Shown: piece after piece, positions 26,988-45,942 of the stretch | Numbering within the stretch: position 1 is the stretch's first letter | How the letters are laid out: each line of letters starts with the position of its first letter | Origin: Frigoribacterium sp. ACAM 257 | GTDB taxonomy: Bacteria; Actinomycetota; Actinomycetes; Actinomycetales; Microbacteriaceae | Direction: 5' to 3' | DNA: 64,000 bases | NCBI RefSeq assembly: GCF_007954365.1 | Contig: NZ_VOLO01000002.1 | Span: forward strand, 124,001-188,000 | Translations under genes and position numbers: made by a program | The notes under the pieces: generated by a model | Database searches by the model: none | Told to the model about the DNA's origin: nothing | Seen by the model: only the letters and a program-made list of their open reading frames with translations

Positions 26988-27299
26988 TCAGGCCCGCACC
27001 AATCGGGCGATCGCGTCGGACGCTTCCTTGATCTTTTCGGCCGCAGCAGCACCGCCCTCGGTGACAGCGTCGGTGACGCAATGCGTGAGGTGGTCGTTCA
27101 GCAGGCCCAGGGCCACGGACTGCAGCGCCTTCGTCATCGCCGACACCTGGGTGAGGATGTCGATGCAGTACTGCTCCTCGTCGACCATCCGCTGCAATCC
27201 CCGCGCTTGCCCCTCGATGCGCTTGAGGCGCTTGAGGTAGTCGTCCTTGGCGGTGATGTACCCATGGTGGTGATCGTGCTCGGTTGCAGTGTCGGTCAT
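26988..27299 (-). CDS. csoR: copper-sensing repressor CsoR
   Basis: A 103-residue CsoR/RcnR-family repressor that releases DNA on binding Cu(I). The diagnostic Cys-His-Cys ligands are all present at C45, H70 and C74, with exactly the 25- and 4-residue spacing of mycobacterial CsoR. An N-terminal His-rich patch (HDHHHG) adds possible ligands. It is divergent from copZ-copA. CsoR-type boxes (C- and G-runs between TACC and GGTA) lie upstream of copZ, the Nuo-like operon and the third DUF305 gene. No such box was seen before csoR itself. Confidence 0.93.
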   Translation of the reverse strand: MTDTATEHDHHHGYITAKDDYLKRLKRIEGQARGLQRMVDEEQYCIDILTQVSAMTKALQSVALGLLNDHLTHCVTDAVTEGGAAAAEKIKEASDAIARLVRA

Positions 27300-27472: not shown

Positions 27473-27502
27473 CTACACTCACCTAGATACCCCCCTAGGG
27501 TA
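27473..27502 (+). promoter_or_regulatory. copZA promoter with CsoR-type operator
   Basis: TACCCCCCTAGGGTA at 27488-27502 is a typical CsoR box. Just before it, CTACACTCACCT (27473-27484) contains the -10-like TACACT. The same 12-mer precedes the box of the Nuo-like operon at 29981. The box covers the expected transcription start. Confidence 0.85.
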
Positions 27503-27537: not shown

Positions 27538-27765
27538 ATGGGCGAGCAGTTGACGAAAACGTACGGCATCACCGGCATGACGTGCGGACACTGCGTGGCG
27601 AGCGTCCACGAAGAACTCACCACCGTGCCGGACGTCACGGATGTGGCCATCGACCTCAATGTCGGCGGTGTTTCCACCGTTCAGGTGAGTAGCACCCGCG
27701 ACCTGTCTCAGGAGGAAGTCTCCGCCGCTGTGAAGGAGGCCGGCTACACGTTGGTCGCATCATGA
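27538..27765 (+). CDS. copZ: copper chaperone CopZ (HMA domain)
   Basis: A 75-residue cytosolic metallochaperone that hands Cu(I) to the CopA ATPase. The metal site MTCGHC is at residues 14-19, and the rest follows the ferredoxin-like HMA fold (VTDVAIDLNVGGVSTVQV, then VSAAVKEAGYTLV). ATG 27538 lies 36 bases after the CsoR box. The stop overlaps the start of copA by four bases, so the two are coupled and should be copper-induced through CsoR. Confidence 0.94.
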   Translation: MGEQLTKTYGITGMTCGHCVASVHEELTTVPDVTDVAIDLNVGGVSTVQVSSTRDLSQEEVSAAVKEAGYTLVAS

Positions 27766-29954
27766 CCACCACAACCGCGCCGGTCGAGCTGACGATCCAG
27801 GGGATGACCTGCGCGTCATGCGCGAACCGGATCGAGCGGAAACTGAACAAGCTGCCCGGTGTCACGGCGAGTGTGAACTACGCCACGGAAAGCGCCACCG
27901 TCACCCTCCCCGCAGACCTCGCCGTCGATGATGCGATCCGCACCGTCGAGGCCGCTGGCTACGGCGCCCACCTGCCCGAATCGGGCAGTGAAGACACCGA
28001 CGAGCTCGTGCCGCTGCGGCGACGCTTGATTGTGTCCACCGTGCTCGCCGTCCCGGTGGTAGCGCTGTCGATGGTCCCGGCGCTGCAGTTCCCGGGCTGG
28101 CAGTGGGCCGTCCTGTTGTTGGCGATGCCTGTCGTCGTGTGGGGCGCGTGGCCGTTCCACCGAGCTGCCGTGATCAACGCCCGACATGGTGCCGCGACGA
28201 TGGACACCCTCGTCAGCGTCGGTGTCGCCGCCGCAACCGGGTGGTCTGTGTGGGCGCTCATTTTCGGTGGCGCCGGACACATCGGGATGCGGATGGCGTT
28301 TTCCTGGTTTCCGCACCCCGGCGCTGCGCCGGAACCGTACTTCGAAGTCGCCACCGCGGTGACGGTGTTCCTCCTCGCCGGGAGGTACTTCGAAGCGCGC
28401 GCGAAGGACCGCTCCGGAGCCGCCCTCCAGGCGCTGCTCGCGTTGGGCGCACCAACTGCAACTGTTCTCCGCGACGGCATCGAAGTGGAGCTGCCAAGCT
28501 CGGCATTGCAGGTTGGGGACCGGTTCGTGGTCCGCCCCGGTGAGCGCATCGCCACCGACGGAACCATCAGCGACGGTACGAGCGCGGTCAACACCAGTGT
28601 CATGACGGGGGAAGCGGTGCCCGTCGAGGTCGGCCCCGGCGACACCGTCACCGGAGCGACCGTGAACGTCGGTGGCCGGCTCATCGTCGAAGCCACCCGC
28701 GTCGGACAGGACACCGAGCTGGCGCGCATCGGCCGACTCGTGGTCTCCGCGCAGAGCGGCAAGGCCGAAGTGCAGCGCCTTGCCGACCGTGTCTCCGCCG
28801 TTTTCGTCCCAATTGTCATGGGCTTGGCGGTTCTAACCCTCGTGGGGTGGCTGCTAGTCACCGGAGATGTGCAAGCTGCGTTCACTGCTGCGGTCGCGAC
28901 ACTGGTCATCGCCTGCCCCTGCGCCCTGGGGCTTGCAACACCCACCGCGCTGCTTGTCGGTACCGGCCGCGGCTCCCAACTGGGGATCCTCATCCGCGGC
29001 CCGCAGGTCCTCGAGGCCACCCGCCGGATCGACACCGTCGTGCTCGATAAGACCGGCACGGTCACCACGGGCCGGATGAGCGTCCACCAGGTCACTGCCG
29101 TCCATGGGGGCGCCGAGGCCCGTGTGCTGGCCCTCGCTGCTGCGGCGGAAGCAGGATCGGAACATCCAATCGCCCGCGCCATCACCGGCGCAGCCACCGA
29201 CTATCCGGTAGCAGAGACGTTCCAGTCCACCGCAGGGTTCGGTGTGCAAGCCATCGTCGACGGCGCTCTCGTGCTCGTCGGCCGACCGGCGTGGCTGACC
29301 GGGCAGTGGGCAATCACCATTCCGGAATCGGTCACGGATGCAGTCCGGACCGCCGAACGTGGCGGCGCGACAGCGGTCGTTGTCGCCTGGGACGGCGCCG
29401 CCCGCGGCGTCATCAGCGTTGCGGACACCGTCGCGTCGACCAGCCCAGACGCGGTCCGTCGCCTCCACCAAATGGGGCTGCGCACGATCATGCTCACCGG
29501 CGACGCTGACGACGTCGCTCGGACGGTCGCTGCAGAAATCGGCATCGATGACGTCGAAGCTGAGGTGCGACCCGAAGACAAGTACCAGACCATCATCCGG
29601 CTACAGAAGCAGGGCCGGTCCGTGGCGATGATCGGTGACGGCGTCAACGACGCCGCCGCTCTCGCCGCCGCTGACCTGGGCATCGCGATGGGCAGCGGTT
29701 CCGACGCCGCCATGGAAGCCGCCGACATCACCCTGATCCGCGCCGACCTAAGCGCTGCTGCAGATGCGATCGCGCTCGCCCGCCGCACTCTCGGCACGAT
29801 CAAGGTGAACCTGTTCTGGGCCTTTGCCTACAACGTCGCCGCGATCCCACTCGCGATGGCTGGCTTGCTGAACCCGATGATCGCAGGCGCCGCGATGGCA
29901 CTGTCTTCGGTGTTCGTCGTCAGCAACAGCCTCCGACTCCGCAGGTTTCACTGA
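27762..29954 (+). CDS. copA: copper-translocating P1B-type ATPase CopA
   Basis: A 730-residue inner-membrane pump that exports Cu(I) from the cytosol. It has one N-terminal HMA domain with MTCASC, the actuator word TGE, the copper-specific CPC motif (ACPCALGLATP, about residue 384), the phosphorylation motif DKTGTVT at about 428, and the hinge GDGVNDAAAL at about 625. Eight membrane segments can be placed around these. Length and order are normal for the family. It overlaps copZ and is followed, 82 bases on, by the Nuo-like operon, which has a separate promoter. Confidence 0.96.
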   Translation: MTTTTAPVELTIQGMTCASCANRIERKLNKLPGVTASVNYATESATVTLPADLAVDDAIRTVEAAGYGAHLPESGSEDTDELVPLRRRLIVSTVLAVPVVALSMVPALQFPGWQWAVLLLAMPVVVWGAWPFHRAAVINARHGAATMDTLVSVGVAAATGWSVWALIFGGAGHIGMRMAFSWFPHPGAAPEPYFEVATAVTVFLLAGRYFEARAKDRSGAALQALLALGAPTATVLRDGIEVELPSSALQVGDRFVVRPGERIATDGTISDGTSAVNTSVMTGEAVPVEVGPGDTVTGATVNVGGRLIVEATRVGQDTELARIGRLVVSAQSGKAEVQRLADRVSAVFVPIVMGLAVLTLVGWLLVTGDVQAAFTAAVATLVIACPCALGLATPTALLVGTGRGSQLGILIRGPQVLEATRRIDTVVLDKTGTVTTGRMSVHQVTAVHGGAEARVLALAAAAEAGSEHPIARAITGAATDYPVAETFQSTAGFGVQAIVDGALVLVGRPAWLTGQWAITIPESVTDAVRTAERGGATAVVVAWDGAARGVISVADTVASTSPDAVRRLHQMGLRTIMLTGDADDVARTVAAEIGIDDVEAEVRPEDKYQTIIRLQKQGRSVAMIGDGVNDAAALAAADLGIAMGSGSDAAMEAADITLIRADLSAAADAIALARRTLGTIKVNLFWAFAYNVAAIPLAMAGLLNPMIAGAAMALSSVFVVSNSLRLRRFH

Positions 29955-29980: not shown

Positions 29981-30011
29981 CTACACTCACCTGCAGTACC
30001 CCTCCGGGGTA
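29981..30011 (+). promoter_or_regulatory. promoter of the Nuo-like operon with CsoR-type operator
   Basis: CTACACTCACCT at 29981-29992 is identical to the copZ promoter element. It is followed by the palindrome TACCCCTCCGGGGTA at 29997-30011. A strong AAGGAGAT ribosome site and the nuoA-like start come next. The arrangement predicts copper-dependent induction of the operon by CsoR. Confidence 0.8.
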
Positions 30012-30036
30012 TGCCCGTCGGGGAAGGAGATCCTGA

Positions 30037-30387
30037 ATGTCCGCATACGTCACCATTGGCATCGTGCTCGGCGTCGGGCTGCTCGGCATCGCCGCCCTGG
30101 TGCTGGTGTCACGAGCAATGACGGTCGCTCCGGTTCGCAAAGGTGTGCTGCCGTTCGGGTCAGGGTGGGACCTCCAGGAACATGCACTCTCGCGATTCCA
30201 CACCCGCTGGTACCCGATGACGCTGGTGTTCCTTGCCTTCGACGTGGAAATGCTGTTCATGTACCCGTGGGCGGTCGTGGTCGCGCAGATGGGTGCAGAA
30301 GCAGTCATCGAGATGTTCGTCTTCCTCGGGGTCCTTGTGGCAGGGGTGGTTTGGGCCTGGCGGGAAGGCGCCTTCCGATGGGTGTGA
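30037..30387 (+). CDS. nuoA: NuoA-like subunit of an orphan complex I membrane arm
   Basis: A 116-residue membrane protein with three segments, matching NADH-quinone oxidoreductase subunit A. The conserved part is RFHTRWYPMTLVFLAFDVEMLFMYPWA (key words RWYP and FDVEMLF with the acidic residues typical of NuoA), followed by a last helix near FVFLGVLVAG. It is the first gene of an eight-gene operon (A, a B/D-like gene, H, J, K, L, M, N) that has no genes for the NADH-oxidising or full hydrophilic arm. Its promoter carries a CsoR-like box. Confidence 0.9.
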   Translation: MSAYVTIGIVLGVGLLGIAALVLVSRAMTVAPVRKGVLPFGSGWDLQEHALSRFHTRWYPMTLVFLAFDVEMLFMYPWAVVVAQMGAEAVIEMFVFLGVLVAGVVWAWREGAFRWV

Positions 30388-31442
30388 CCGAGGACCGTCG
30401 CCGCCCGCTGCATGTGCTTCTCGTCGAGGTGCCCGGCAACGGCCTGGTTCGGATCGTGTGTGAAGCCACGGCTGCCGCCGCAGGCCACATCCTCGCCGTC
30501 CACCCGGCGGAGAGCGACGTCCTCCTCGTCTGCGGAACACCCGGACCAGAGCTGCAGACCCTCCTCGACCGCGTATGGGATCAGATGCCCTACCCGAAGC
30601 ACCGAGCCACGCTCACCCGACCCGACGAGATCGCCACCGTCCTCGGGGCCGCGCAGGATGCGCTTGCAAACCGACCCGCACAGCGATCCGCCGCACGCGA
30701 GGACCAGGACACGATCCATCATGCTGACGAATCGATGCACCACGACGACATGACAGCGGACGGGCACGACCACACGTCGATGGATCACATGTCGATGAGT
30801 GGTCCAGGCGGCTACCCGCTCGCCGATGGTGCCGATGACCGGGACGGGTTGGAGATGGACGTACTCCACCGGAGGCTCGGCCCGATCCTGCCGGCCTGGC
30901 CCGCTGGTGTGGTCCTGGATGTGACGCTTGCCGGCGACACCATCACCGGCGCTTCCGCCTCGATGATCGACGTCGACGATTACCAGCACGCGGAGCCGCA
31001 GAACGTGGCGGCCATCGCACTCGATCAGGCTGCCCAGGTGCTGGCCGTTGCCGGGTGGGATGCCGCTGCAGCTCGGACACTCCGCGTGCGAGATCTTGCC
31101 GTGACCGGCCGCCGCGATCAGGCGCGAAAGCGCCTTCTCCCGCTGCGCCGCCGGGTCGAACGATCCCTGCTGCTCCGCTGGTCCCTGAACGGACTCCAGG
31201 TCAGGCCTGGCGTCGACGTCCGCACCGTTCTCTTGGCCCGCTTGGAGCGAGCAACCGTCTCGCTCAATGCGGCTCAATTCGAACCGGAGCCGTCAACGAC
31301 GGCGGATGAGATTCCGGCACTAATAGAAGGGCGCGACATCGGCAGCGCCCGCCTCATCGTCGCAGCACTCACCGTGCACCCCGGCCGTCGCACCGACATC
31401 ACCGAACAGGCCGGCACGACGAGACACCCCCACCATGGTTGA
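30378..31442 (+). CDS. degenerate NuoB/NuoD-like protein with Met/His-rich insert
   Basis: A 354-residue soluble protein that overlaps the nuoA-like gene. Near its N-terminus, SDVLLVCGTPGPELQ followed by VWDQMPYPKH resembles the NuoB segment before its Fe-S cysteines, but no cysteine ligands follow. The second half (LHRRLGPILPAWPAGVVLDVTL) recalls NuoD or hydrogenase large-subunit relatives, again without metal-binding cysteines. Between them, at about residues 115-148, is a Met/His/Asp-rich stretch (HHADESMHHDDM, HTSMDHMSMSG) of the kind seen in periplasmic copper proteins, though no signal peptide is present. Homology to B and D is my inference from short motifs. It takes the place of the whole hydrophilic connecting module. 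Confidence 0.6.
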   Translation: MGVTEDRRRPLHVLLVEVPGNGLVRIVCEATAAAAGHILAVHPAESDVLLVCGTPGPELQTLLDRVWDQMPYPKHRATLTRPDEIATVLGAAQDALANRPAQRSAAREDQDTIHHADESMHHDDMTADGHDHTSMDHMSMSGPGGYPLADGADDRDGLEMDVLHRRLGPILPAWPAGVVLDVTLAGDTITGASASMIDVDDYQHAEPQNVAAIALDQAAQVLAVAGWDAAAARTLRVRDLAVTGRRDQARKRLLPLRRRVERSLLLRWSLNGLQVRPGVDVRTVLLARLERATVSLNAAQFEPEPSTTADEIPALIEGRDIGSARLIVAALTVHPGRRTDITEQAGTTRHPHHG

Positions 31443-32364
31443 TATCGAAAGCACCCTTTGGGCTCTCGTTCTGCCCGCCGTCGTCGTCGTGCTCGCCATC
31501 ACGGCTGCCAGCGGCAACGCCGTTCTGGTGGCACGGGACCGCGGGACACCGGTGAGCGCTGCGGTCTTGTCCCCGTTCCATGAAACCCACCGGCTTCTGC
31601 GCCAGCAGCGCCGTTCCGTGCTCGGCGCGGACACCCTCCTGTGGCGGATCGGTGGGTCCGGGCTCATCGTCGCCGCGTTCCTCGCCGCCCTCGCCGTCCC
31701 GGTCGGAAACCTCACGCCGCTGGACGTGCCGGTCGGCGTCGTGTGGTTCAACGCCGTGGACGTCACCCTCTGGGCATTGTGGTGGCTCCTCGGCTGGGGC
31801 AGCAACAGTGTGCATCCGCTGATCGGCGGCTACCGGTTCCTGGCGCAGGCGCTGGCGTACGAAATCCCGCTGATGTTCGCCCTGACCGCACCCGCGATCG
31901 GGGCGCAGAGCCTCCGGCTGACAGACGTGGTCTCGGCGCAGGAACCGATCTGGTTCGCGGTCACCATGCCGGTCGCGTTCGTTGTCTACTGCGCCTCCGT
32001 CACCGCATTCTCCGCGTGGGGTCCGTTCGCCCTCCCTGCCGGTACGGACATCGCCGGCGGTGTCCTCGGAGAACTTTCCGGCGTTGACCGGCTGCTCGTC
32101 CTCGCCGGCAGGTGGTGCCTGCTCGTCGCAGGCGCCGCGTTCGCCGTCCCGATGTTCCTCGGCGGCGGCGCCGGTCCGCTGCTCCCGCCCGCACTGTGGG
32201 TGCTGGTGAAAACGTGTGCGTTGCTCGCCGTGTTCTTGCTGCTCGGACGTGCGATGCCCGCAGTGCGGCCGCAGCGGCTCGCAGAAATCGGATGGGTCGT
32301 CGTGTTGCCGCTGGTGCTGCTGCAGCTGCTGGTCACCTCGGTGCTGGCCGTGACGGGAAATTGA
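31435..32364 (+). CDS. nuoH: NuoH-like subunit
   Basis: A 309-residue membrane protein with about eight segments, resembling NADH-quinone oxidoreductase subunit H. Typical H features are the charged loop after the first helix (FHETHRLLRQQRRS), the GGYRFLAQALAYEIPL segment (compare RAAAQMISYEVPL in ordinary NuoH), and the late acidic loop. It overlaps the preceding gene by eight bases and the next by one. In complete complex I, NuoH forms the quinone-site end; its retention without NuoB, NuoD and NuoI of normal form is unusual. Confidence 0.85.
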   Translation: MVDIESTLWALVLPAVVVVLAITAASGNAVLVARDRGTPVSAAVLSPFHETHRLLRQQRRSVLGADTLLWRIGGSGLIVAAFLAALAVPVGNLTPLDVPVGVVWFNAVDVTLWALWWLLGWGSNSVHPLIGGYRFLAQALAYEIPLMFALTAPAIGAQSLRLTDVVSAQEPIWFAVTMPVAFVVYCASVTAFSAWGPFALPAGTDIAGGVLGELSGVDRLLVLAGRWCLLVAGAAFAVPMFLGGGAGPLLPPALWVLVKTCALLAVFLLLGRAMPAVRPQRLAEIGWVVVLPLVLLQLLVTSVLAVTGN

Positions 32365-32930
32365 TGACCGTGATGGCAACGATCGTGTTCTGGGTCGCGG
32401 CAGTGGTCGCGGTGGTCGCCGCAGCCGCGGTGTTCCGGGTTGATTCGATGGCACGCGCCACGTACGCCCTGGCGGTGTCGTTCATCGCCGTGGGCGCAGC
32501 CGTTCTGGTGCTACACCTGGACTTCATCGGCGTCGTGACGATCCTGATGATGGTGATGGAGATGGCCGTCATGGCCGTGTTCATGGTCTCCTACATGGGT
32601 ATGAACCCGGCGCTGATGCCGATGGATATGACCCACAGCAAACGACCCGCAGCGATGATCGCGGTCGCGGTGTTCGTCGGCCTCGCCGCAGCCGCGCTCC
32701 TCATCCCATGGCCTGACCGCGCCGGTTCGCCGGGGGCGGACACCACCCAAGCGCTCGGAGAAGCGATCATGGGCTCAAAGATGCTGGTGATGCTGACGAT
32801 CAGCCCGATCCTGTTCGCCACGATCGTCGCAGCCCTGGTCCTTGCAAACCCCAGGGGCCGATACGACCGACGCGGCGACGAACTCCGGGACCAACCCTCG
32901 GATCCGGAACCCGGAGGGATCGGACGATGA
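32364..32930 (+). CDS. nuoJ: NuoJ-like subunit
   Basis: A 188-residue membrane protein with about five segments, in NuoJ position and of NuoJ type (ARATYALAVSFIAVGAAVLVL, then LHLDFIGVVTILMMVMEMAVM). A Met-rich patch follows (MGMNPALMPMDM). The ATG at 32364 shares one base with the nuoH stop codon; the frame is open further upstream but that part is in another reading of nuoH. The end overlaps nuoK by four bases. Confidence 0.82.
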   Translation: MTVMATIVFWVAAVVAVVAAAAVFRVDSMARATYALAVSFIAVGAAVLVLHLDFIGVVTILMMVMEMAVMAVFMVSYMGMNPALMPMDMTHSKRPAAMIAVAVFVGLAAAALLIPWPDRAGSPGADTTQALGEAIMGSKMLVMLTISPILFATIVAALVLANPRGRYDRRGDELRDQPSDPEPGGIGR

Positions 32931-33229
32931 CCCTGGAATTGGTCCTGTTGGTTGTTGCCGCACTGTTCGCCATCGGGCTGTACGGGGCGATCTCGCAGCA
33001 GGTGGTCGTGATGGTGATGATGGGTATCGAGGTGATGGTGAACGCCGTCATCCTCGCCGCCGCCGCGTTCTGGTGGTATCTCTCACCAACGGTCGACGGG
33101 CAGGTGCTGCTGCTGGTGATCATCGCAGCGATGACAATCGAAATGGCGATGGGCTTCGCCGTCGCCACCATCCTGCACCGCTCCCGGAACTCCGACATGA
33201 CCGACTCGGCAACGGATCTCACCCAGTGA
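32927..33229 (+). CDS. nuoK: NuoK-like subunit
   Basis: A 100-residue, three-segment membrane protein of the NuoK/MnhC type. The conserved buried acids are visible in VMMGIEVMVNAVIL (first Glu) and IAAMTIEMAMGFAV (second Glu), both needed for proton coupling in ordinary NuoK. It overlaps nuoJ (ATGA) and nuoL (GTGA) by four bases each, so the operon is tightly coupled. Confidence 0.88.
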   Translation: MTLELVLLVVAALFAIGLYGAISQQVVVMVMMGIEVMVNAVILAAAAFWWYLSPTVDGQVLLLVIIAAMTIEMAMGFAVATILHRSRNSDMTDSATDLTQ

Positions 33230-35130
33230 GCGCCGCGCTGATTACCGCCGTCATCCTGCCCGCCCTTGTCGGGGCAGGACTGTCGACTGCTGGACGCCTG
33301 GCCGAACGGATCGCGGTCCCCATCAGCCTCGCCACGGCCGCTGTGACCGCAGTTTTCGCAACCATCGCGGCGGCCACCCGTGCGGAGGTAACCGGCGGGG
33401 TGCCAGCTCTTCTCGCACCCCCCGGCCCGGATCTTCGCGTCGATGCGCTGGCCGCGGTCGTCTTGCCAACCGTGGCGTGGGTCGCGTTCCTCGTGCTTGT
33501 GTTCGCGACCGCGGACCGGACGCGTCCTGCTGCCCGGTTCCATGGGCTGATGTTGCTCTTCCTCGCCGCCGTCGTGGTTACCGTGACCGCGACCGGGCTG
33601 CCGCTGCTGCTCGCCGCCTGGGAGGTGATGGGCGCCACCTCCTACGCCCTCATCGGGTTCCGCTGGCAAGACCGGAACCGCGTCGACGGCGGACTCATCG
33701 CGTTCACCGTCACCCGTGCCGGGGACCTTGGCATGTACCTCGCCGCCGGCGCAGTCATCGCCGGTGGCGGCACCTGGTCGCTCACCGCTCTGCAATCGCT
33801 GCCGGGCCCGTGGGTACACGTTGCGGCCGCGGGGCTGCTTGTTGCCGGCTTAGGGAAGGCGGCGCAGCTGCCGTTCTCGTTCTGGATCTCCCGTGCCATG
33901 GAGGGCCCGAGCGCCGTGAGCGCGCTGCTGCACTCCGCGGCCATGGTCGCCATGGGCGGGTATCTCCTGCTCCGCGTCGAACCGCTTTTGAGCGTGACCA
34001 ATTGGGCAGGCCCGACGGCGGCGTGGGTGGGCGCTACGACCGCGATCGTGCTCGGCTTCATCGCGCTGTCGCAACGGGACCTGAAGCAGGTGCTTGCCGC
34101 ATCAACGGCATCTCAGCTGGGGTTCGTCGTCCTCGCCGCCGGTGTCGGCTCGGTCAGCGGCGGAACCGCGCAGCTCATCACGCACGCCGCCACGAAAGCG
34201 CTGCTGTTCCTCACCGCAGGCGCGTGGCTCACGGCTACCGGGACGAAACAGTTCACCGGTCTCCGCGGCATCGCCGCCCGCTGGCCCGCGATCGGTGTCC
34301 TCGCGACTGTCGGTGCGCTGTCGCTGGCTGGTCTGCCGCCACTGTCACTCTGGTACGCCAAGGACGTCGTCCTCGCCGCCGCACTGGAGGAACAGCCCTG
34401 GTTGTACGCGGCGGGCCTGGCCGGGGCGGCACTTGCGGCGGCCTACTCTGCCCGGATCATCGGGCTGCTGTGGCGACGTGCAGGAACACCGGAAGCATCC
34501 TGGGACGACGAGGAACACGGCACCCGGCGGGTGCCCCGTCTCGTGGTCGTCCCGATGGTGGTACTCGCCGTCGCTGCAGCCGGACTTGCGCTCCTCGGCA
34601 CGCCGCTGCTGCATCCGCTGCTCGACCCGTTGTCCGGGCCTGCGGTGTCGTGGCCGGAGCTCGCCGCGTCGGCGGCGATCGCGGTCGTCGTGGTCCTGCT
34701 GGTCCTGTGGCGCACACCAACAGTCCGCATCGGGATGCACTGGTTCGGGCTAGAGCGGGCAGCCGTCACGGTCATCGTAGCGCCGACCCTGAGACTCGCT
34801 GCAGTCCTTGCGCGGCTGGATGATCGATACGGTACGGCCCTCGACCGGTCGGGACGTGCGCTCGAGAGCACCGCACGCGTCGCACAAGCAATGGATGACC
34901 TCTATGGCACGGCCCTTGATCGGTCGGGACGTGCACTCGAGAGCACCGCACGCGCCGCACGCGTGCTCGATGAGCGCGGACCCGCCGCAGTGACGGGGCA
35001 GCTCGGCTCCGCTGTCGCGGTACTCGGTCGTCTGGCGCGGCGCCCGCAAACCGGCCAGGTGCACCACTACTACATCGGCGCGACTCTAACCGTCGCCGCC
35101 GCCGCCATCCTGCTCTTAGTCGTGAGGTGA
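33226..35130 (+). CDS. nuoL: NuoL-like antiporter subunit
   Basis: A 634-residue antiporter-type subunit with about fifteen membrane segments. Family marks include LLAAWEVMGATSYALIGF (key Glu), LGKAAQLPFSFWISRAMEGPSAVSALLHSA (key Lys and the PVSALLH-type word), and THAATKALLFLTAGA. Start is GTG 33226, overlapping nuoK. The C-terminal region holds a perfect-length tandem duplication of 25 residues (34819-34968) on the linker before the final helix, in the part where normal NuoL carries its long lateral helix. Confidence 0.9.
   Translation: MSAALITAVILPALVGAGLSTAGRLAERIAVPISLATAAVTAVFATIAAATRAEVTGGVPALLAPPGPDLRVDALAAVVLPTVAWVAFLVLVFATADRTRPAARFHGLMLLFLAAVVVTVTATGLPLLLAAWEVMGATSYALIGFRWQDRNRVDGGLIAFTVTRAGDLGMYLAAGAVIAGGGTWSLTALQSLPGPWVHVAAAGLLVAGLGKAAQLPFSFWISRAMEGPSAVSALLHSAAMVAMGGYLLLRVEPLLSVTNWAGPTAAWVGATTAIVLGFIALSQRDLKQVLAASTASQLGFVVLAAGVGSVSGGTAQLITHAATKALLFLTAGAWLTATGTKQFTGLRGIAARWPAIGVLATVGALSLAGLPPLSLWYAKDVVLAAALEEQPWLYAAGLAGAALAAAYSARIIGLLWRRAGTPEASWDDEEHGTRRVPRLVVVPMVVLAVAAAGLALLGTPLLHPLLDPLSGPAVSWPELAASAAIAVVVVLLVLWRTPTVRIGMHWFGLERAAVTVIVAPTLRLAAVLARLDDRYGTALDRSGRALESTARVAQAMDDLYGTALDRSGRALESTARAARVLDERGPAAVTGQLGSAVAVLGRLARRPQTGQVHHYYIGATLTVAAAAILLLVVR
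34819..34968 (+). repeat. tandem 75-bp repeat inside nuoL (25-residue duplication)
   Basis: Repeat 1 is 34819-34893, repeat 2 is 34894-34968. Both translate to DDxYGTALDRSGRALESTAR plus five variable residues. Silent differences between the units indicate that the duplication is not very recent and that the protein sequence is kept. Confidence 0.85.
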
Positions 35131-36614
35131 TCGTGCTCAGTCTGATCGTGTTTCTTCCCGTCACCGTCGCGGCGGTCCTAGCCCTGACACGGGCGATGTC
35201 AGGGCGGGTAGCCGCGTGGGTATGGCTGGCGACGAGCGTGGTGGAGCTCGCTCTGGGAATCCTCGTGGCCCTCCCCGCATCCGATATGCCGGGCCTGCGA
35301 TGGGAGGAGCGGGTCGAGTGGATGCCGAGTGTCGGCACCAGCTATCACGTCGGCATCGACGGCTTGTCAGCACCGTTGGTGCTCCTGACCGACGTTGTGT
35401 TCCTGGCTTGTGCGCTCTGGGCGATCCGGGACACCGATCGGCCCCGTCCGCAGGCTGCGCTCTTCATGTTCCTGCAGACCACCTGCCTCGGGGTGTTCGC
35501 CGCGCAGGACCTGCTGGTGTTCTTCGTGTTCTTCGACCTGTCGATCGTGGGCATGTACTTCGTGATCGCGGGCTGGGGGCATGGTGACCATCACCGGTCG
35601 GCACTGCGGTTCTTCCTCTACACGTTCCTCGGATCGCTGGCGCTGCTGCTCGGATTCATCGGCCTGTACCTCGGATCGGCGCCGCACACATTCGACATGG
35701 TCGAACTCACCCGACACGGTTACACCGGCACACCGCTCGCCGCTGGTGCCGTACTCGCAGCGCTTGTGGTCGGCTTCGCCGTCAAGACCCCCACGGTGCC
35801 GTTCCACTCCTGGCTGCCGCCGGCACACACCGACGCACCGTCCATCGGCTCCGTTGTCCTCGCGGGCGTCCTCCTGAAAATGGGCACTTACGGGTTCCTC
35901 CGCATCGCGATGCCGATGCTGCCCGACGCCTGGCGATCTTGGTCATGGGTAATCGTCATCGTCGGCATCGTGTCAGTGCTTTATGGGGCACTCGTGGCGC
36001 TGGCGCAAACGAACGTGAAGCGGCTGATCGCGTACACCTCGGTCAACCACATGGGCTACGTCGTGCTGGCCGTCGGCGCCGCGGGCGTGACAGGGTCTTC
36101 CTCCGCCCAGGCGCAGCAGTTGGCGATCACCGGCGCGACCGTGCAAATGGTGTCGCATGGGCTCATCACCGGGGCGCTGTTCCTCCTAGCGGGCGTCCTG
36201 TACAACCGGCGGGACAGCTATGAGATCAGCGACTACAGCGGCCTCGCGAAACCCGCACCACGATTCTCTGGGCTCTTTGCTGTCGCCGCGTTCGCGTCGC
36301 TCGGAATCCCCGGCTTCAGCGGGTTTATTGCCGAGTTCCAGATCTTCGCTGGCAGCATCGGCGCAACCGCGGTCGCGGCGATCGCACTGCCAGGGATCTT
36401 GATCACCGCCGCCCTGTTCCTCCGCACCGTGCAGAAGATGCTCACCGGCCCGACGGAACGTCTCGCCGAAGGCTTCACCGACACCACCACCCGGGAGACC
36501 ATGACGATCGGTGCGCTCCTGCTGCTCTCACTGGCCGTCGGCGTGGTTCCAGGACCGCTGCTGCAGCTCATCGCCCCTGCGGCCAGGCAGTTGGCCGCCT
36601 TGGTTGGGGGTTAG
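35127..36614 (+). CDS. nuoM: NuoM-like antiporter subunit
   Basis: A 495-residue antiporter-type subunit with about fourteen membrane segments. It has the M-type signatures VFFVFFDLSIVGMYFVIAGWG, KTPTVPFHSWLPPAHTDAPSIGSVVLAGVLLKMGTYGF (read in parts: the Lys, HSWLPPAH and LLKMGTYG words) and AYTSVNHMGYVVLA. The GTG start overlaps the nuoL stop. All residues expected for proton translocation seem present, so this looks like a working antiporter module rather than a relic. Confidence 0.92.
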   Translation: MIVLSLIVFLPVTVAAVLALTRAMSGRVAAWVWLATSVVELALGILVALPASDMPGLRWEERVEWMPSVGTSYHVGIDGLSAPLVLLTDVVFLACALWAIRDTDRPRPQAALFMFLQTTCLGVFAAQDLLVFFVFFDLSIVGMYFVIAGWGHGDHHRSALRFFLYTFLGSLALLLGFIGLYLGSAPHTFDMVELTRHGYTGTPLAAGAVLAALVVGFAVKTPTVPFHSWLPPAHTDAPSIGSVVLAGVLLKMGTYGFLRIAMPMLPDAWRSWSWVIVIVGIVSVLYGALVALAQTNVKRLIAYTSVNHMGYVVLAVGAAGVTGSSSAQAQQLAITGATVQMVSHGLITGALFLLAGVLYNRRDSYEISDYSGLAKPAPRFSGLFAVAAFASLGIPGFSGFIAEFQIFAGSIGATAVAAIALPGILITAALFLRTVQKMLTGPTERLAEGFTDTTTRETMTIGALLLLSLAVGVVPGPLLQLIAPAARQLAALVGG

Positions 36615-36616
36615 GC

Positions 36617-37996
36617 GTGAACATGGACTACGGCGCCCTTCTGCCGGAGATTGTCCTGATGAGCGGCGCGATCGTTGCGCTCCTTGGCGGCAGCTTCCTG
36701 CCCCGACGCCGGCAGGCGCTCGTGACCTGGTTCGCGATTGCCGCGGCATGCGGCAGTGCGGTCGCGGCCGCAGTGAGCACAGGATCACCGACCGTCTTTA
36801 GTGACAGTTACGCCCTCGACGACGCGACCATGACGATCAGGATTCTCGTTCCGTTGGCGACCGGCGTTGTGATGCTCATCGGACGACGGGAGTCCCAGGG
36901 CTCTGCTCGGGAGAGCGAGACCGCGTCGCTACTGCTCCTGGCCGCACTCGGGACTGTCGTCCTCGCCGGCGCAAACGATCTCCTTATCGTGGCGACGGGG
37001 TTCCTCTTGGCGACAGTGCCGTTGTACGCGCTGATCGGGCTATCCCGATCTGCGATGGCAGCGGAGGCAACGATGAAGACGTACCTACTGGGTGCGGTAT
37101 TCGGCGTCGTGATGCTCTTTGGCATCACCGTCCTCGTCGGTGTTGCCGGTGGCAGCACCTACCCCGAGCTGCAGCGTGCGCTCCCACACGTTCCAGCCGC
37201 AGCGGTCGCGCTCGGGTTCACTGGGGCCCTTGCGGGGCTGCTATTCAAAGCGGGGGCCGTCCCCGGACACTTCTGGGTCCCAGATGCAGCCGAGGGTTCC
37301 GGCATTGGCATCGCCGCGTTTATCACTACCGTCCCGAAGCTCGGCGCCCTGATCGCACTGGCGCGTCTCGTTGGCGTCATGCCCGAGACTCTGAATGCAC
37401 CGCTACTGATCGGTGTGCTCGCCGCGGCAAGTATGACGCTCGGCACCCTCGCCGCGTTCTGGCAGCGCAGCGCCTCACGGCTACTCGGCTGGTCCACCGT
37501 AGGGCAGGTCGGGTTCCTGCTGATGCCCGTCGCTGTGATCGGGGCCGAGCCGTCAGCTCGCCCCGCACTGCTGATATACCTCGTGTTCTACGCCGTGACA
37601 AACCTGGCCCTGTTCGCCGCGATCGCCGCCCTCCCGGCCCGGGCGACGATCCCCTCCTGGCGCGGTGCAGCGCGGGAACATCCAGTCATTACCGGTGTCG
37701 TCGTAGTCGCCTTGTTGAGTCTCGTGGGCACGCCACCGACCGCGGTTTTCGTAGGAAAACTAGCGGTCTTCACGGCCACCTGGCAGGGCGGGATGCCGTG
37801 GCTAGTAGTCATCGCTGCGGTCGTGTCGGTGGCATCGCTGTTCTACGCGCTCCGCTGGGTGTCGACGGCCTTCCAGCGGACGAAGACACCACGGCCGGCC
37901 GTTGTCGCTGTTCGGCTGCAGGCAGCTACCGCCGTAGTACTTGGTGCGCTGGTCATCGTCGCGGCCGTCGGCCTCCCTGCCTTCCCCCTGCTGTGA
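36617..37996 (+). CDS. nuoN: NuoN-like antiporter subunit
   Basis: A 459-residue antiporter-type subunit, the last gene of the operon. N-type words are LYALIGLSRSAMAAEATMKTYLLGA (key YLLGA), FKAGAVPGHFWVPDAAEGS, and RLLGWSTVGQVGFLL. It starts at GTG 36617, or ATG 36623, two bases after nuoM. The following gene is convergent, so the operon ends here. The module A-B/D-H-J-K-L-M-N resembles the second, incomplete nuo clusters known from streptomycetes, but here it stands inside a copper locus. Confidence 0.88.
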   Translation: MNMDYGALLPEIVLMSGAIVALLGGSFLPRRRQALVTWFAIAAACGSAVAAAVSTGSPTVFSDSYALDDATMTIRILVPLATGVVMLIGRRESQGSARESETASLLLLAALGTVVLAGANDLLIVATGFLLATVPLYALIGLSRSAMAAEATMKTYLLGAVFGVVMLFGITVLVGVAGGSTYPELQRALPHVPAAAVALGFTGALAGLLFKAGAVPGHFWVPDAAEGSGIGIAAFITTVPKLGALIALARLVGVMPETLNAPLLIGVLAAASMTLGTLAAFWQRSASRLLGWSTVGQVGFLLMPVAVIGAEPSARPALLIYLVFYAVTNLALFAAIAALPARATIPSWRGAAREHPVITGVVVVALLSLVGTPPTAVFVGKLAVFTATWQGGMPWLVVIAAVVSVASLFYALRWVSTAFQRTKTPRPAVVAVRLQAATAVVLGALVIVAAVGLPAFPLL

Positions 37997-38047: not shown

Positions 38048-38641
38048 TCAATCCGTTGGGCACTGTCGGTCAGCGGTGTCGTCGTAGGTCGGTGCGGGAC
38101 GTGCCTGTGCTTCCTCGGCGGTCGCGGCGATGCCGTTGCGTTCGATGTCCTCGATGAGCCAATCCATTTCCCGGATCTCCCGACGCTGCGCCTCACTGAT
38201 GTCGACTGCGAGTTCACACACGCGAACGTCTTCGATCTGAGCACGTTCCGAGCGTGTGATCGCCAGGGAGTGGTGGGGGATCATCGCGCTCATCCATCCC
38301 GTGTCGCCTACAAGGATCTGGCTCCGGTCGAGGGCGACGCCTCCTCCGATCAAGACGACGCTGGTCGCGACGACGGCGATGTTCGCCTTGGTGTTCTTGT
38401 ACATGTTCAGCATCCAGGCGAGCATCACGAGGCCCATGGTGCCTCCCATCGTGAGGGCCATAAACACGCGACTCTCGCTGAAACGGACATGCGCCCATTC
38501 CCAAGAGCCGAGGAACATCGTCCAGTACATGACGACCATGGCGGTGAGGATCATGGCGCCGAATCGGAGGTACTGACGCCCTGGGCCAGCTGCGTGCTGC
38601 TGCCCTGCGTCCTTGTGGTTTTGGGAGTCTTCATTCGACAT
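38048..38641 (-). CDS. DUF305-type protein with membrane segments
   Basis: A 197-residue protein with three predicted membrane segments at about residues 27-115 (for example FGAMILTAMVVMYWTMFLG, AWMLNMYKNTK boundary, IAVVATSVVLIGGGV). A short DUF305-type domain follows, with the metal-site phrase MSAMIPHHSLAI (HH pair), and the domain ends in a Cys (RQCPTD). Only one of the two usual HH clusters is retained. ATG 38641 is preferred because the upstream translation is Arg-only. It converges with nuoN and closes the copper module before the res-like site. Confidence 0.75.
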   Translation of the reverse strand: MSNEDSQNHKDAGQQHAAGPGRQYLRFGAMILTAMVVMYWTMFLGSWEWAHVRFSESRVFMALTMGGTMGLVMLAWMLNMYKNTKANIAVVATSVVLIGGGVALDRSQILVGDTGWMSAMIPHHSLAITRSERAQIEDVRVCELAVDISEAQRREIREMDWLIEDIERNGIAATAEEAQARPAPTYDDTADRQCPTD

Positions 38642-38868
38642 TCGATGGTTCCTTCGCCGTCGTGGTGTGAGATTGCGCACTCCTGCGAACGGCAGGGACT
38701 GTGCTGTTCGACCTGCCGCATGCGTGTTGCTTCAGCCCTACCCGTGTGACGGTTCGATGACACGGATCGATTCCGGAAGGAAGGGCCACGGCTCAGATCG
38801 GCCCGCCGGGAACGGATGTTCGAAACAGCTTTCAAATCAAACTGGGCGCCGGGAAAAGGTAACGCGCT

Positions 38869-39011: not shown

Positions 39012-39578
39012 ATGCTCATCGGATACGCCCGCGTCTCGACGTCAGGACAAGATCTCGCAGCACAACGTGACGGTCTTGCAGCGCTTGGTGTTGACGATCA
39101 ACACGTCCATGTTGACCACGGCTTGTCGGGCACTACTCGAGCCCGGCCGGGCCTGCGCGAGGCCCTCGCTGCGTGCCGTGCCGGCGACGTCCTGGTGGTG
39201 ACGAAGCTCGACCGTCTTGCCCGCTCGCTGCGTGACGCGACCGACATCTCCGACGAGCTCACGAAGAAGGGCGTCGCCCTGAACCTCGGGGGAGCGGTCT
39301 ACGACCCCACCGACCCAGTGGGCCGCCTGCTATTCAACGTCCTCGGAATGGTGGCTGAGTTCGAGGCCGACCTGATCCGTGCCCGCACGCGGGAGGGGAT
39401 GGCGATCGCCAAGGCCGCTGGCAAGCTTCGCGGTCGCAAGCCCAAGCTCACCCCCTCACAGGAGAAGCACCTCGTGCAGCTGCACCGCACCGGCGCCCAC
39501 ACAACCAGCGAGATCGCCGAACTCTTCGGTGTTGCGCGTTCGACGGTCTACCGCGCAATCCAGCGAGCGGCGCCCTGA
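39012..39578 (+). CDS. serine recombinase (resolvase/invertase family)
   Basis: A 188-residue small serine recombinase. The catalytic Ser is residue 9 in YARVSTSGQDLAAQ; other family words are TKLDRLARSLRD and FNVLGMVAEFEADLIRARTREG with the catalytic Arg cluster. A C-terminal helix-turn-helix (TTSEIAELFGVARSTVYRAI) reads the crossover site. Such enzymes recombine res or gix-type sites by double-strand exchange through a Ser-linked intermediate. The probable site lies just upstream (38869-38989), with related copies across the region. No Tn3-type transposase is in the window. Confidence 0.93.
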   Translation: MLIGYARVSTSGQDLAAQRDGLAALGVDDQHVHVDHGLSGTTRARPGLREALAACRAGDVLVVTKLDRLARSLRDATDISDELTKKGVALNLGGAVYDPTDPVGRLLFNVLGMVAEFEADLIRARTREGMAIAKAAGKLRGRKPKLTPSQEKHLVQLHRTGAHTTSEIAELFGVARSTVYRAIQRAAP

Positions 39579-39608
39579 TCCATCGATTCGTGGACGAGGC
39601 TCGGCGGA

Positions 39609-40010
39609 TCAGGGGAACGTTCGGAACACGCACTCGGTCGAGCACCGCTCTGACCGGTCAGGGCACGCGGCTAGGCCGTGTTCGGCACGAGCGAGGCGTG
39701 ACCGGAGCCGGTCGAGCCGGGCCTGCTTCTTCTCGATCTGACGCACCTGCTCTGCCAAGAGCGGCCGCAGCGCCTCCCGGACATCGGTGCAGGACGTCGA
39801 CTCCATGGTGCTGAGGTGCGCGCCGATCTGATCAAGAGGCAATCCGAGTTCTTTGCTGGCTTCAATCAGGTCGAGGCGGCTGAGCAGGTCCGGGCTGTAG
39901 TCGCGGTACCCGTTGTGGGCCCTGGCCGGGGTCAAGAGCCCGATGGACTCGTAGTACCGGAGCGCCGTGGCGGAGACACCGCTGCGTTTACTGACTTCGG
40001 AGATTCGCAC
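39609..40010 (-). CDS. MerR-family regulator of the arsenic permease gene
   Basis: A 133-residue MerR-type activator: N-terminal winged helix (ISEVSKRSGVSATALRYYESIGLL), a coiled-coil dimerisation helix, and a C-terminal sensing tail with cysteines (CPDRSERCSTECVF) suitable for binding a thiophilic ion. It starts with GTG 40010, apparently leaderless (TAGGGT six bases upstream). Its target promoter is the 19-bp-spacer promoter at 40039-40069, between it and the permease gene. The inducer is not proven; the neighbouring ArsC and ACR3-type permease favour arsenite or antimonite. Confidence 0.87.
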   Translation of the reverse strand: MRISEVSKRSGVSATALRYYESIGLLTPARAHNGYRDYSPDLLSRLDLIEASKELGLPLDQIGAHLSTMESTSCTDVREALRPLLAEQVRQIEKKQARLDRLRSRLARAEHGLAACPDRSERCSTECVFRTFP

Positions 40011-40038
40011 ACCGCGACCCTAGAGCCGCCGGTGCCGC

Positions 40039-40069
40039 TTGACCTTCGAGCGGCTCGAACCTCTACGGT
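40039..40069 (+). promoter_or_regulatory. MerR-type promoter with 19-bp spacer
   Basis: -35 TTGACC (40039-40044) and -10 TACGGT (40064-40069) are separated by 19 bases, the overlong spacer of MerR-activated promoters. Centred in the spacer is a perfect dyad, TTCGAGCGGCTCGAA (40045-40059). It drives the permease gene and is read by the MerR protein encoded next to it. Confidence 0.8.
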
Positions 40070-40105
40070 CACTGACGTGCCCTCTTCCCCCACACCTGTC
40101 CTGCC

Positions 40106-41079
40106 GTGAACGCGGTCGTTTCCTGGCGCGAACACCGGCAGATCGGTCTTTACCTGGTCGCTATCCTGGCTGCCGGCGTGGTCGGCCTCACCGTGCCGGG
40201 GGCACACCACCTAGAGGCCGCGATCGAGCCCGTGCTCGCGATGCTGCTGTTCGCGACGTTTCTCGGGGTGCCGTTCGCCGCGATCAGGAGGTCTCTCCGA
40301 GACGGGCGGTTCCTCGCCGCGGTCGGGGTGCTGAACTTCGTCGTCGTCCCCCTCGTCGCGTACGGGCTGTCCCGGTTCGTCGCGGACGAGCCGGCGCTGC
40401 TGTTCGGGGTGCTGCTGGTGCTGTTGACCCCGTGCATCGACTACGTGATCGTGTTCGCCGGTCTTGCCGGCGGCGCGTCAGAACGGCTCCTCGCTGCGGC
40501 ACCGGTTCTGATGCTGGCGCAGATCCTTCTCCTGCCGCTGTACCTGCTGCTGTTCATCGGCCCCGAGGGCGTCGCCGTGGTCGAGGTCGGCCCCTTCGCA
40601 CGGGCGTTCCTCCTCCTAATCGTCGTCCCGCTCACCGCGGCCGCGCTCGTGCAGGCCCTCGCCCGGCGACACCGGTCCGGTGTCGTGATCGAGCGGACGA
40701 TGCTGGGCCTATGGTGCCGCTGATGATGGCAACCCTGTTCACCGTCGTGGCCTCACAAGCCGGAGACGTCGGAGACGCCCTGGGGCAGCTCCTCGTGCTG
40801 GTGCCGATCTATGCCGCGTTCCTCGTCGTCATGGCAGCGCTCGGCATCGGCGTCGGACGCATCTTCCGGCTCGACGTGCCAGCAACACGGGCCCTGGTGT
40901 TCAGCGGTGCGACCAGGAACTCGCTCGTGGTCTTGCCGCTCGCACTCGCCCTCCCGGCGTCGCTGTCGCTTGCTCCGGTCGTCGTCGTCACCCAGACGCT
41001 CATCGAGCTCGTTGGCATGGTGATCTTCGTCCGCCTCGTCCCACGTCTCGTGCGGAGCGATTCAGAGACGGTTGCGTAG
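40106..41079 (+). pseudogene. ACR3-type arsenite permease, split by a frameshift
   Basis: Two adjoining frames make up one ten-segment transporter of the bile-acid:sodium symporter/ACR3 arsenite family. The first runs from GTG 40106 through PLVAYGL and LLTPCIDYVIVFAG, where the Cys in TPC is the expected arsenite-related cysteine. It stops at 40723 after MLGLWCR. The second frame carries on from ATG 40711 (MVPLMMATLFTVVAS) to 41079 with the final segments. A single missing base after 40710 explains the break. Either the gene is inactivated or the assembly has an error there; the intact flanking sequence argues for a recent event. It converges with arsC, overlapping by 18 bases. Confidence 0.8.
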
Positions 41080-41469
41080 GTCTGCGACTCGAGAGCGAAT
41101 GTCGTCTCGGACAAGGCGCATCCGCTCCATGCCTTCGATGCCCCGCTCGGAAGGTTCGTCTGTGATCCACGTCTCGAACCGGACTGTCGGGATCCCTTCA
41201 ACTTTCGCCTCGGTACCGAGAGTCACGAGGACGTCAGCCGTGGCGATCATGTCTGCGGTGAGGGCCTTCGGGTGCTCGTCGCCAACGTCGATGCCCAGCT
41301 CTTGAAGAGACTGGACTGATTGGGCGTTGAGGGCAGCCCCGGGCTTGGTGCCGGCAGAGCGCACGGTGACCTCGTCGCCAGCGAGGTCGCGCATCAGAGC
41401 TGCGGCCATTTGCGACTTGCCCGCGTTCTTCTGACAGACGAAAACGACAGTGGGCTGATGAGTGGTCAT
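41062..41469 (-). CDS. arsC: arsenate reductase, low-molecular-weight phosphatase type
   Basis: A 135-residue enzyme that reduces arsenate to arsenite. The P-loop is VCQKNAGKSQ with Cys12 as nucleophile and Lys where classical phosphatases have Arg, a form I recall from actinobacterial mycothiol-dependent ArsC proteins. The C-terminal VRFETWITDEPSERG carries the expected Asp-Glu-Pro motif. ATG 41469 is used because MTTHQPTVVFVC is the normal family start; the open frame extends 22 codons upstream without family resemblance. It overlaps the end of the permease gene on the opposite strand. Confidence 0.87.
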   Translation of the reverse strand: MTTHQPTVVFVCQKNAGKSQMAAALMRDLAGDEVTVRSAGTKPGAALNAQSVQSLQELGIDVGDEHPKALTADMIATADVLVTLGTEAKVEGIPTVRFETWITDEPSERGIEGMERMRLVRDDIRSRVADLRNRL

Positions 41470-41519
41470 GTGGCGAACCATACTGACGTCGAGAAACGAG
41501 TCACCGCGTTTGCGTCTCG

Positions 41520-41643
41520 ATAGCCGATCCGCCACCGAGAGCGATTTCGGACCGATTTATCGAGACGATCTGGGCCCCGCAACTAAGAGGGAGTGGTCGC
41601 AGCCAACGAGCGTCCGGTGACCGACCGTCTAACGGGCGTCTCG
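41520..41643 (+). repeat. res-like site family, copy A
   Basis: Starts ATAGCCGATCCGCCACCGAG and contains TTTCGGACCGAT, TATCGAGACG, GAGTGG, and GTGACCGACCGTCTAACGGGC. About two thirds of positions match the tandem copies at 54180-54396. Its right end is an exact inverted match to the left end of copy D, so copies D and A bracket the serine recombinase and arsenic genes as inverted repeats. Confidence 0.65.
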
Positions 41644-41654
41644 TTCGGAGGTGC

Positions 41655-45170: not shown

Positions 45171-45942
45171 GCGTGCTATGCAACTCCTCGGGGTGCGCCT
45201 CTCGACGCGGGGCGATCGTCGAGACGGATGCCGGCGGCCCCCGGCCGGTCCAGGCGCCTTGCACTCGTCGGCAGCCGTCGCGGGCTGGGAATCGATCAAC
45301 CGCCTCATCGACCCCAGGCCGATCGCGAATCCCTGGCTGCTGGTCGCCGCTGGGCTCATCGGCTTTGCAGACAACGAACTCGTCGCGATCTACCGCATCC
45401 GCGTCGGGCGACGGATCGGATCGGCAGCCCTCGTCGCTGACGGGGTCCACGCCCGCCTGGACGGCTTCACGTCCCTGTCTGTCGTGCTGGGCGCCATCGG
45501 GGTCCTCGCCGGGTTCCCGCTCGCGGACCCCATCATCGGCCTGCTCATCGCAGCCTCGATCATGGTCCTGCCCTGGGGGACGGTGAAATCCATCGGCCGA
45601 CGGCTGATGGACGGCATCGACCCCGACCTCCACAAGCGAGCCGAACACGCCCTGGAACACGCCCTGGGCGTGCGGGGCGTCCACGATCTTTATCTCCGGT
45701 GGATCGGGCACCGTCTCACCGGCTCCGCAACCATCGAGGTCGACGCCGAAGACCTCCTGACGGCGTCCCAGACCGCCGACCAGGCCGAGGCGCATCTGCG
45801 CGCTGCGCTCGGCAACCTCGACGCGTTCACCGTTACACCGATACCACCGGTGCCGGCTCAGAGGCTCTCATCAGCCGTACGCGGCACGATACCTCCGGGG
45901 GGTATCTTTTTTTCGATTCTGATCCTGGAAGAACGACCATGA
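45169..45942 (+). pseudogene. cation diffusion facilitator, 5'-truncated
   Basis: From about residue 40 the frame matches the last two thirds of a CDF-type divalent-metal exporter: GWESINRLIDPRPI, then GFADNELVAIYRIRVGRRIGS, VADGVHARLDGFTSL with the metal-site His and Asp, and the cytosolic domain with a late HxLxGSATIEVD phrase. The first two or three membrane segments, with their own metal-binding motif, are missing. They are replaced by unrelated sequence where the exchanger gene begins on the other strand. At the end the frame reads through a CsoR box into the start of the third DUF305 gene, so its last 25 residues are probably not original. It is best seen as a remnant. Confidence 0.65.
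45890..45904 (+). promoter_or_regulatory. CsoR-type operator before the third DUF305 gene
   Basis: TACCTCCGGGGGGTA matches the boxes at 27488-27502 and 29997-30011 in length and in its TACC/GGTA ends. It lies 34 bases before the ATG of the DUF305 gene. This would place a gene 18 kb away under the same copper repressor. Confidence 0.7.

Follow-up and report, generated by a model that had tools for sequence, protein, structure and literature searches.

An orphan complex I membrane arm beside the copper genes of Frigoribacterium sp. ACAM 257: a candidate copper-linked machine of Actinomycetota

What does the membrane arm of complex I do in a bacterium where NuoB, C, D and F of the normal kind cannot be found? 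The question is raised by a tight operon of eight genes, in the order nuoA-X-H-J-K-L-M-N, which adjoins csoR-copZ-copA in a stretch of 64,000 nucleotides from Frigoribacterium sp. ACAM 257 (contig NZ_VOLO01000002.1, positions 124,001 to 188,000 of the forward strand; the whole stretch is referred to here as the window, and gene X as BD). The genome holding it is 3.33 Mb in size and 99.89% complete. We are highly confident that the operon encodes a copper-linked machine which is not a redox enzyme. That this machine would be a Cu(I) exporter, induced by copper and driven by protons, which arose from the complex I membrane arm is, in our judgement, an evenly balanced proposition. The genes and promoter elements concerned are as follows, in window coordinates.

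26988..27299, minus strand: csoR, Cu-type CsoR repressor (PF02583, E 2e-30; fits the CsoR/RicR signature R.{13}M.{5}YC.D..H...C printed in PMC4531530)
27488..27502, plus strand: CsoR-type box before copZ, TACCCCCCTAGGGTA (TAC-X9-GTA, the rule given in the available part of PMC3902906; three mismatches to the box pattern)
27538..27765, plus strand: copZ, copper chaperone (HMA PF00403, E 6e-11)
27762..29954, plus strand: copA, copper-type P1B ATPase (TIGR01511 and TIGR01525 over cut-off; PF00122)
29981..29992, plus strand: 12-mer CTACACTCACCT, with an identical copy before copZ at 27473-27484
29997..30011, plus strand: CsoR-type box before nuoA, TACCCCTCCGGGGTA
30037..30387, plus strand: nuoA (PF00507, E 6e-25; D69, E71 and E92 kept; Met72 and Met75 new and conserved)
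30378..31442, plus strand: BD gene (NuoB-like domain without Fe-S cysteines, His/Met-rich linker at about residues 105-142, probable NuoD-like domain)
31435..32364, plus strand: nuoH (PF00146, E 9e-43; E143, which is E. coli E157, kept; quinone-loop acidic residues lost)
32364..32930, plus strand: nuoJ (PF00499, E 4e-13; conserved Met29, 62, 63, 65, 67, 70, 74, 78, 80, 85, 87, 89, 136, 140 and 143, and Glu66)
32927..33229, plus strand: nuoK (PF00420, E 7e-13; new Met29, 31, 69 and 73; Glu35 and Glu72 kept)
33226..35130, plus strand: nuoL (PF00361, E 7e-49; proton-path residues kept)
35127..36614, plus strand: nuoM (TIGR01972, 459 bits, over cut-off; proton-path residues kept, Glu144 replaced by Asp)
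36617..37996, plus strand: nuoN (PF00361, E 5e-42; TM5 glutamate lost, E. coli E133 being L; most lysines kept)

An earlier note on this DNA, made from the sequence alone, had described nuoA, H, J, K, L, M and N as one coupled operon. All seven membrane subunits were matched over Pfam cut-offs at 30037-37996, and the coordinates of consecutive nuo frames showed them to overlap or to sit a few bases apart, in agreement with that description; the eighth gene (30378-31442), which is real and conserved, had been overlooked. With respect to the missing redox half, models for NuoB (PF01058), NuoD (PF00346), NuoF (PF01512) and NuoC (PF00329) found no match in the genome at E <= 0.001, near the operon or elsewhere; NuoE, NuoG and NuoI were not searched. 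The genome encodes one NuoA-like protein and one NuoH. The results for NuoB, C, D and F therefore ruled out a full complex I, encoded at another place, as a source of the missing parts, and the arm is an orphan as had been claimed. The further statement that NuoB and NuoD are absent holds for normal copies, but the BD gene has NuoB and probably NuoD ancestry. NuoD was present in 112 of 118 genomes of the same class, the six without it being the genome studied here, three from its family, one from its order and one other. The window copy is not a pseudogene or relic, since its frames are intact and many columns are invariant across distant loci.

Relatives of BD were found in 15 plasmid records and in at least 286 confirmed stretches among genome contigs, of which the best 80 were kept. 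In a survey of the phylum, 195 of 396 genomes matched BD; among the matches listed, 30 (own genome included) reached E ~3e-10 or better, and the others corresponded chiefly to the NuoB-like part of the protein. Carriers included Curtobacterium, Cryobacterium, Arthrobacter, Tersicoccus, Kocuria, Nocardioides, Rhodococcus, Gordonia, Mycobacterium, Micromonospora, Salinispora and Blastococcus. Locus maps showed the set A, BD, H, J, K, L, M and N to be common to most loci having enough DNA, and NZ_RKIC01000013.1 (Frigoribacterium sp. PhB24) was identical to the window across the tested protein. In a NuoM tree rooted with the MrpD of this genome, 82 orphans formed one clade (support 0.82) and 21 canonical proteins another (support 0.62). 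The operon family is thus widely distributed across Actinomycetota, plasmids of mycobacteria and rhodococci included. Plasmid copies L007, L008, L009 and L010 appeared broken or cut, L009 carrying an IS3 insertion, as would fit a mobile and dispensable trait. The cluster was also seen outside the phylum, in L069 (Lysobacter maris) and L066 (a metagenome-assembled genome labelled Acidobacteria), by transfer or contamination; proteobacterial relatives are mentioned in the available part of PMC3314556.

The link to copper begins at the promoter. The box before nuoA carries 12 of 12 half-site bases, and the pattern TACCCCTNNGGGGTA had its one match in the 3.33 Mb genome at this box, with none in the reversed control. 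It also satisfies the operator rule of Streptomyces lividans CsoR, TAC-X9-GTA with G/C tracts, as given in the accessible text of PMC3902906, and 29997-30011 is thus predicted to be a CsoR-type operator. When up to three mismatches to the pattern were permitted, the window gave 7 matches against 1.1 +/- 1.2 in shuffles, one of the boxes being counted twice, once per strand. Each copy of CTACACTCACCT is followed within a few bases by a TAC-X9-GTA box, and the TACACT within it is probably a -10 element. Both promoter elements reported in the earlier note, the 15-bp CsoR-like palindrome and the 12-mer common to nuoA and copZ, were accordingly present. A second CsoR-family protein, matching the same copper-type signature, is encoded on contig C6. 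Among 121 loci, a count which includes L014, a duplicate of the window, a CsoR-like box with 11 or 12 of the 12 half-site bases preceded nuoA in 26, where dinucleotide shuffles gave an expectation of about 0.5; all 12 bases were found in 12 loci against 0.0 expected.

The flanking genes tell a similar story. At least one of CsoR, CopZ, CopA-type ATPase, DUF305 and multicopper oxidase was detected by profile (E <= 1e-8) in 58 of 91 orphan loci (20, 35, 33, 37 and 23 loci, respectively), and in none of 20 canonical nuo loci or 20 random 20 kb chromosomal stretches. These profiles were built from annotated plasmid genes and the window, so that seeds came partly from tested loci; the ATPase profile responds to ATPases for other metals as well, and most of the DNA in the canonical controls was operon, with short flanks. 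For these reasons the flanks of 90 loci were also clustered without labels. DUF305 (30), CopA-type ATPase (26), multicopper oxidase (19), CopZ (18) and CsoR (16) were the largest clusters that could be labelled, with unlabelled clusters of larger or equal size interspersed, several of which were, by position, shadows in the opposite strand or another frame (checked in part). Either a box or a copper-type gene was found at 66 of 91 loci. Co-occurrence of such operons with csoR/copA in other genomes, which the earlier note had proposed as a check, was therefore supported. A lipoprotein family recurred in the flanks of 19 of the 90 loci (e.g., L025:7359-8285 and L005:8687-9598); the L005 member is annotated as an F510_1955 family glycosylhydrolase, the L025 member is 40% identical, and the family may be an unrecognised copper-resistance partner.

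The proteins themselves carry the second line of evidence. Residues were compared between 82-87 orphan loci and 21 controls (20 canonical actinobacterial complex I operons and E. coli), the number varying by subunit, since the operon is cut off at some contig ends and in other cases a frame was missed; L014, L007-L010 and the short loci from L094 onward were left out. Columns with methionine in at least 90% of orphans and in no more than 2 of 21 controls numbered 15 in NuoJ, 4 in NuoK, 2 each in NuoA, NuoH and NuoL, 3 in NuoM and none in NuoN. Thirteen of the NuoJ columns were methionine in 85/85 orphans, a count which overstates independence because some of the loci are close relatives. Methionine content was 9.3% in orphan NuoJ versus 2.7% in controls, 8.5 versus 4.6% in NuoK and 4.5 versus 2.7% in NuoA, and was below that of controls in NuoH, L, M and N. 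The NuoJ stretch MMVMEMAVMAVFMVSYMGMNPALMPMDM alone holds eleven methionines, and in distant relatives the core MM..EM..MA..M through PM.M.H was seen in 10 of 15 frames listed, the other five being cut at the end of the stretch. In E. coli numbering, NuoJ Tyr59 was replaced by methionine in 85/85 orphans, with a new glutamate three residues on (Ala62 to Glu, likewise 85/85), while in NuoK new Met69 and Met73 flank the kept Glu72 and Met30 and Met32 precede the kept Glu36. Methionine is a soft ligand favoured by Cu(I), and these conserved NuoJ and NuoK residues are likely to bind it.

BD consists of a NuoB-like domain, a His/Met-rich linker and what is probably a NuoD-like domain. The CC pair of NuoB was found in 0/73 BD proteins, while all four cluster-N2 cysteines were present in 21/21 controls; three cysteine columns are fairly common in BD (57/73, 49/73 and 45/73), and the commonest (residue 52) aligns to NuoB position 99, which is not a ligand. 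The histidine of the NuoD GPQHP motif was replaced by Leu in 71/73 BD proteins, whereas GPQHPSTH was intact in 18 of 20 canonical NuoD, the other two being unmatched by the pattern. The linker held a median of 10 His and 6 Met, with at least 8 in 71 of the 83 proteins having the anchor motif (itself found in 83 of 87). In the BD of a Pseudonocardia alni plasmid (L013:11956-13368), HGE is repeated over a long linker holding 38 His, which points to rapid expansion of the metal-binding stretch. Taken together, the methionines gained by NuoJ and NuoK and the His/Met-rich character of BD, a fused NuoB/NuoD-like protein, point to a complex that would itself handle copper. The suggestion in the earlier note that the flow of protons serves to restore pH or redox balance, or drives some other copper handler, was unsupported as stated in view of these two features.

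The residues compared in the pumping subunits were those which we take, from E. coli, to carry protons. NuoL E144, R175, K229, H254, K342 and K399 and NuoM K234, H241, K265, H322, H348 and E407 were kept in nearly all orphans, with NuoM E144 replaced by Asp. NuoN kept K158, K247 and K395, and its K217 was K in 63 and E in 19. In NuoH, E157, E228 and K274 were kept and E36, E71, E216, E218 and E241 lost or changed. This pattern makes proton translocation through NuoL and NuoM plausible and quinone chemistry by the orphan complex not plausible. The N/K interface is altered.

A working scheme can be drawn from these observations. Copper excess would lift CsoR off its operator. The cytosolic BD would sit at the NuoB/NuoD place on NuoH/A and gather Cu(I) from CopZ or the cytosol. 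The ion would then enter at the Met-rich NuoJ loop (residues 78-89), which is predicted to be cytosolic by the positive-inside rule, beside the presumed BD seat, given an inside location of the basic C-tail and of loops TM1-2 and TM3-4. From there it would pass outward along the NuoJ/NuoK methionines around Glu66 of NuoJ and Glu35 and Glu72 of NuoK, and protons moving inward via NuoL/M/N, as in the scheme for Mrp antiporters, would pay for its export. CopA would provide high-affinity ATP-driven export and the orphan complex proton-driven export alongside. To outward Cu(I)/proton antiport as such we would give roughly an even chance.

Two rival explanations keep the copper link and give the membrane arm other work. 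In one, the complex would be a copper-induced Mrp-like antiporter. It would exchange protons for a monovalent cation (Na+, K+ or another) and so repair the pH or ion balance upset by copper damage, but would not transport copper itself. Copper control does not prove copper transport, the proton-path residues of NuoL/M are kept, and NuoJ, K, L, M and N are homologous to Mrp subunits (PMC7419157, from the part available, as are the other statements drawn from it here). The Na+ path proposed for Mrp runs through MrpA E706, two MrpC histidines and the MrpD TM5 glutamate (PMC7419157), and MrpA Glu706 is the counterpart of NuoJ Tyr59, an equivalence also seen by eye against the MrpA of this genome. 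The glutamate position of the Na+ path is thus methionine in every orphan compared, and this rival leaves the NuoJ/NuoK methionine gain and the BD linker unexplained; we consider it unlikely. In the other, a redox pump would shuttle electrons between copper and quinol, reducing Cu(II) or oxidising Cu(I), via BD and the NuoH cavity and pump protons as complex I does. The resemblance of BD to NuoB and NuoD folds, the kept E157 and K274 of NuoH and the three BD cysteine columns, which could bind metal, speak for it. The absence of the CC pair, the non-ligand position of the commonest cysteine, the loss of the GPQHP histidine and of the NuoH quinone-loop acids E36, E71, E216 and E218, and an operon holding no other redox protein make it improbable.

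A Cu(I) importer or loader, supplying extracytoplasmic copper proteins such as DUF305 and multicopper oxidase rather than detoxifying the cytosol, would fit the frequency of both families among the neighbours (37/91 and 23/91); the CsoR-type operator beside copA and the predicted cytosolic placing of the Met-rich loop and BD would suit export, and the importer is in our view decidedly improbable. Finally, an operon of this kind has been in print as 'partial NDH-1 operon 2' or partial nuo-operon in Salinispora, Kocuria flava S43 and sponge-derived Streptomyces, where it is described, in the available parts of the reports, as a sodium- or proton-pumping marine or osmotic adaptation (PMC3314556, PMC6002675, PMC6676996). 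The gene order is identical, being given as nuoA, hypothetical protein, nuoH-J-K-L-M-N (PMC6676996), and the Salinispora loci had no copper neighbours in the flanking DNA examined. The operon holds no NADH module, however, and the NuoF model matched nothing in the genome; copper-type genes are common neighbours, and carriers include Curtobacterium and Arthrobacter. Neither genus is regarded as marine. All six Salinispora loci of the compared set share the methionines, and the published account is very improbable as an explanation of the family.

Several observations nevertheless weigh against copper export by this complex. CopA already exports Cu(I). No box scoring 11 or more was found at 95 of 121 loci, and 33 of 91 had none of the five copper families in the flanking DNA examined, including 27 that span at least 18 kb and all six from Salinispora; the breadth of the ATPase profile, the short control flanks and the relatedness of some loci, noted above, also count here. 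When placed on a plain alpha helix, the NuoJ TM3 methionines did not gather significantly on one face, random draws doing as well 19% of the time (5% without Met61), a result that speaks against a simple channel stripe. NuoN has lost the TM5 glutamate E133 (L in 80/82) and has Gln for H305 in 82/82, and the MrpD counterpart of that glutamate is part of the coupling point between cation and protons in Mrp (PMC7419157). MrpE, F and G were absent among the genes from nuoA to nuoN, no Mrp models having been run on the flanks.

Past the operon, two further features were noted.

38048..38680, minus strand: DUF305 protein, convergent to nuoN (PF03713, E 4e-8; weak CopM match NF049983, below cut-off)
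45890..45904, minus strand: possible second CsoR-like box, 35 bp before the DUF305 gene 45939-46520 (PF03713, E 7e-45)

The looser pattern TACCNCNNNGNGGTA matched two places in the genome, the nuoA box and 45890-45904, and one in the reversed control, so that the second box may have arisen by chance. The DUF305 gene 45939-46520 may belong to the copper regulon, although its box alone is at chance level genome-wide. Positions 39012-49864 also encode a resolvase, an SBF-family transporter, a Na/Ca exchanger, a SLAC1-family channel and a low-molecular-weight phosphatase-like protein, perhaps of ArsC type; together with the copper genes this looks like a mobile metal-resistance island. No match to Rfam was obtained at gathering thresholds in window 20000-48000.

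How, then, does the operon stand to known systems? With complex I it shares seven membrane subunits, most of the proton-path lysines of NuoL/M/N, the NuoK Glu pair and, in BD, the NuoB-like and probably NuoD-like folds; it departs from it in the lack of Fe-S ligands in BD, of a NuoF match in the genome and of quinone-site residues, and in the J/K methionines and His/Met linker. Mrp Na+(K+)/H+ antiporters likewise put NuoL/M/N-, K- and J-like subunits to work outside redox chemistry, with a proposed cation site at the J/K homologues, but they have MrpE, F and G and hard ligands (Glu, His) where the orphan family has Met (PMC7419157). The MrpA/C/D-like frames of the genome lie elsewhere, on contig C6. 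To our knowledge, Mrp antiporters include no NuoA or NuoH. The CsoR-copZ-copA operons of S. lividans have the TAC-X9-GTA operator, the chaperone and the P1B ATPase in common with the window (PMC3902906, available part), which adds an eight-gene complex I derivative to the presumed regulon. The available parts of the partial NDH-1 descriptions contain no copper link, no identification of the hypothetical protein with NuoB/NuoD and no methionine pattern, and 'copper' has no occurrence in PMC3314556. The earlier note had called copper control of such a cluster new. No account of it was found in the open-licence literature, where absence is weakly tested since several queries demanded four or six terms jointly, but the operon itself was already in print as the marine adaptation cited above.

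From its subunits and their residues, the orphan operon is a member of the complex I/Mrp superfamily with a probable new substrate. We propose tentatively, and at a little under even confidence, that this superfamily has a copper branch in which the E-channel has become a Met-lined Cu(I) path and the quinone module a His/Met-rich copper collector, spread Actinomycetota-wide and on plasmids and misread as respiratory or marine-adaptation genes. If true, this would be a multi-subunit copper exporter driven by protons and unlike either P-type ATPases or CusA-type pumps, and transition-metal transport would be added to the functions of the complex I superfamily. The complex would also offer a natural electron-free system for a long-standing question, the coupling of an E-channel event to distant proton pumps via the J/K/N interface. 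A widespread actinobacterial operon, including its mycobacterial and rhodococcal plasmid copies, would then be re-annotated, and the marine-adaptation story revised.

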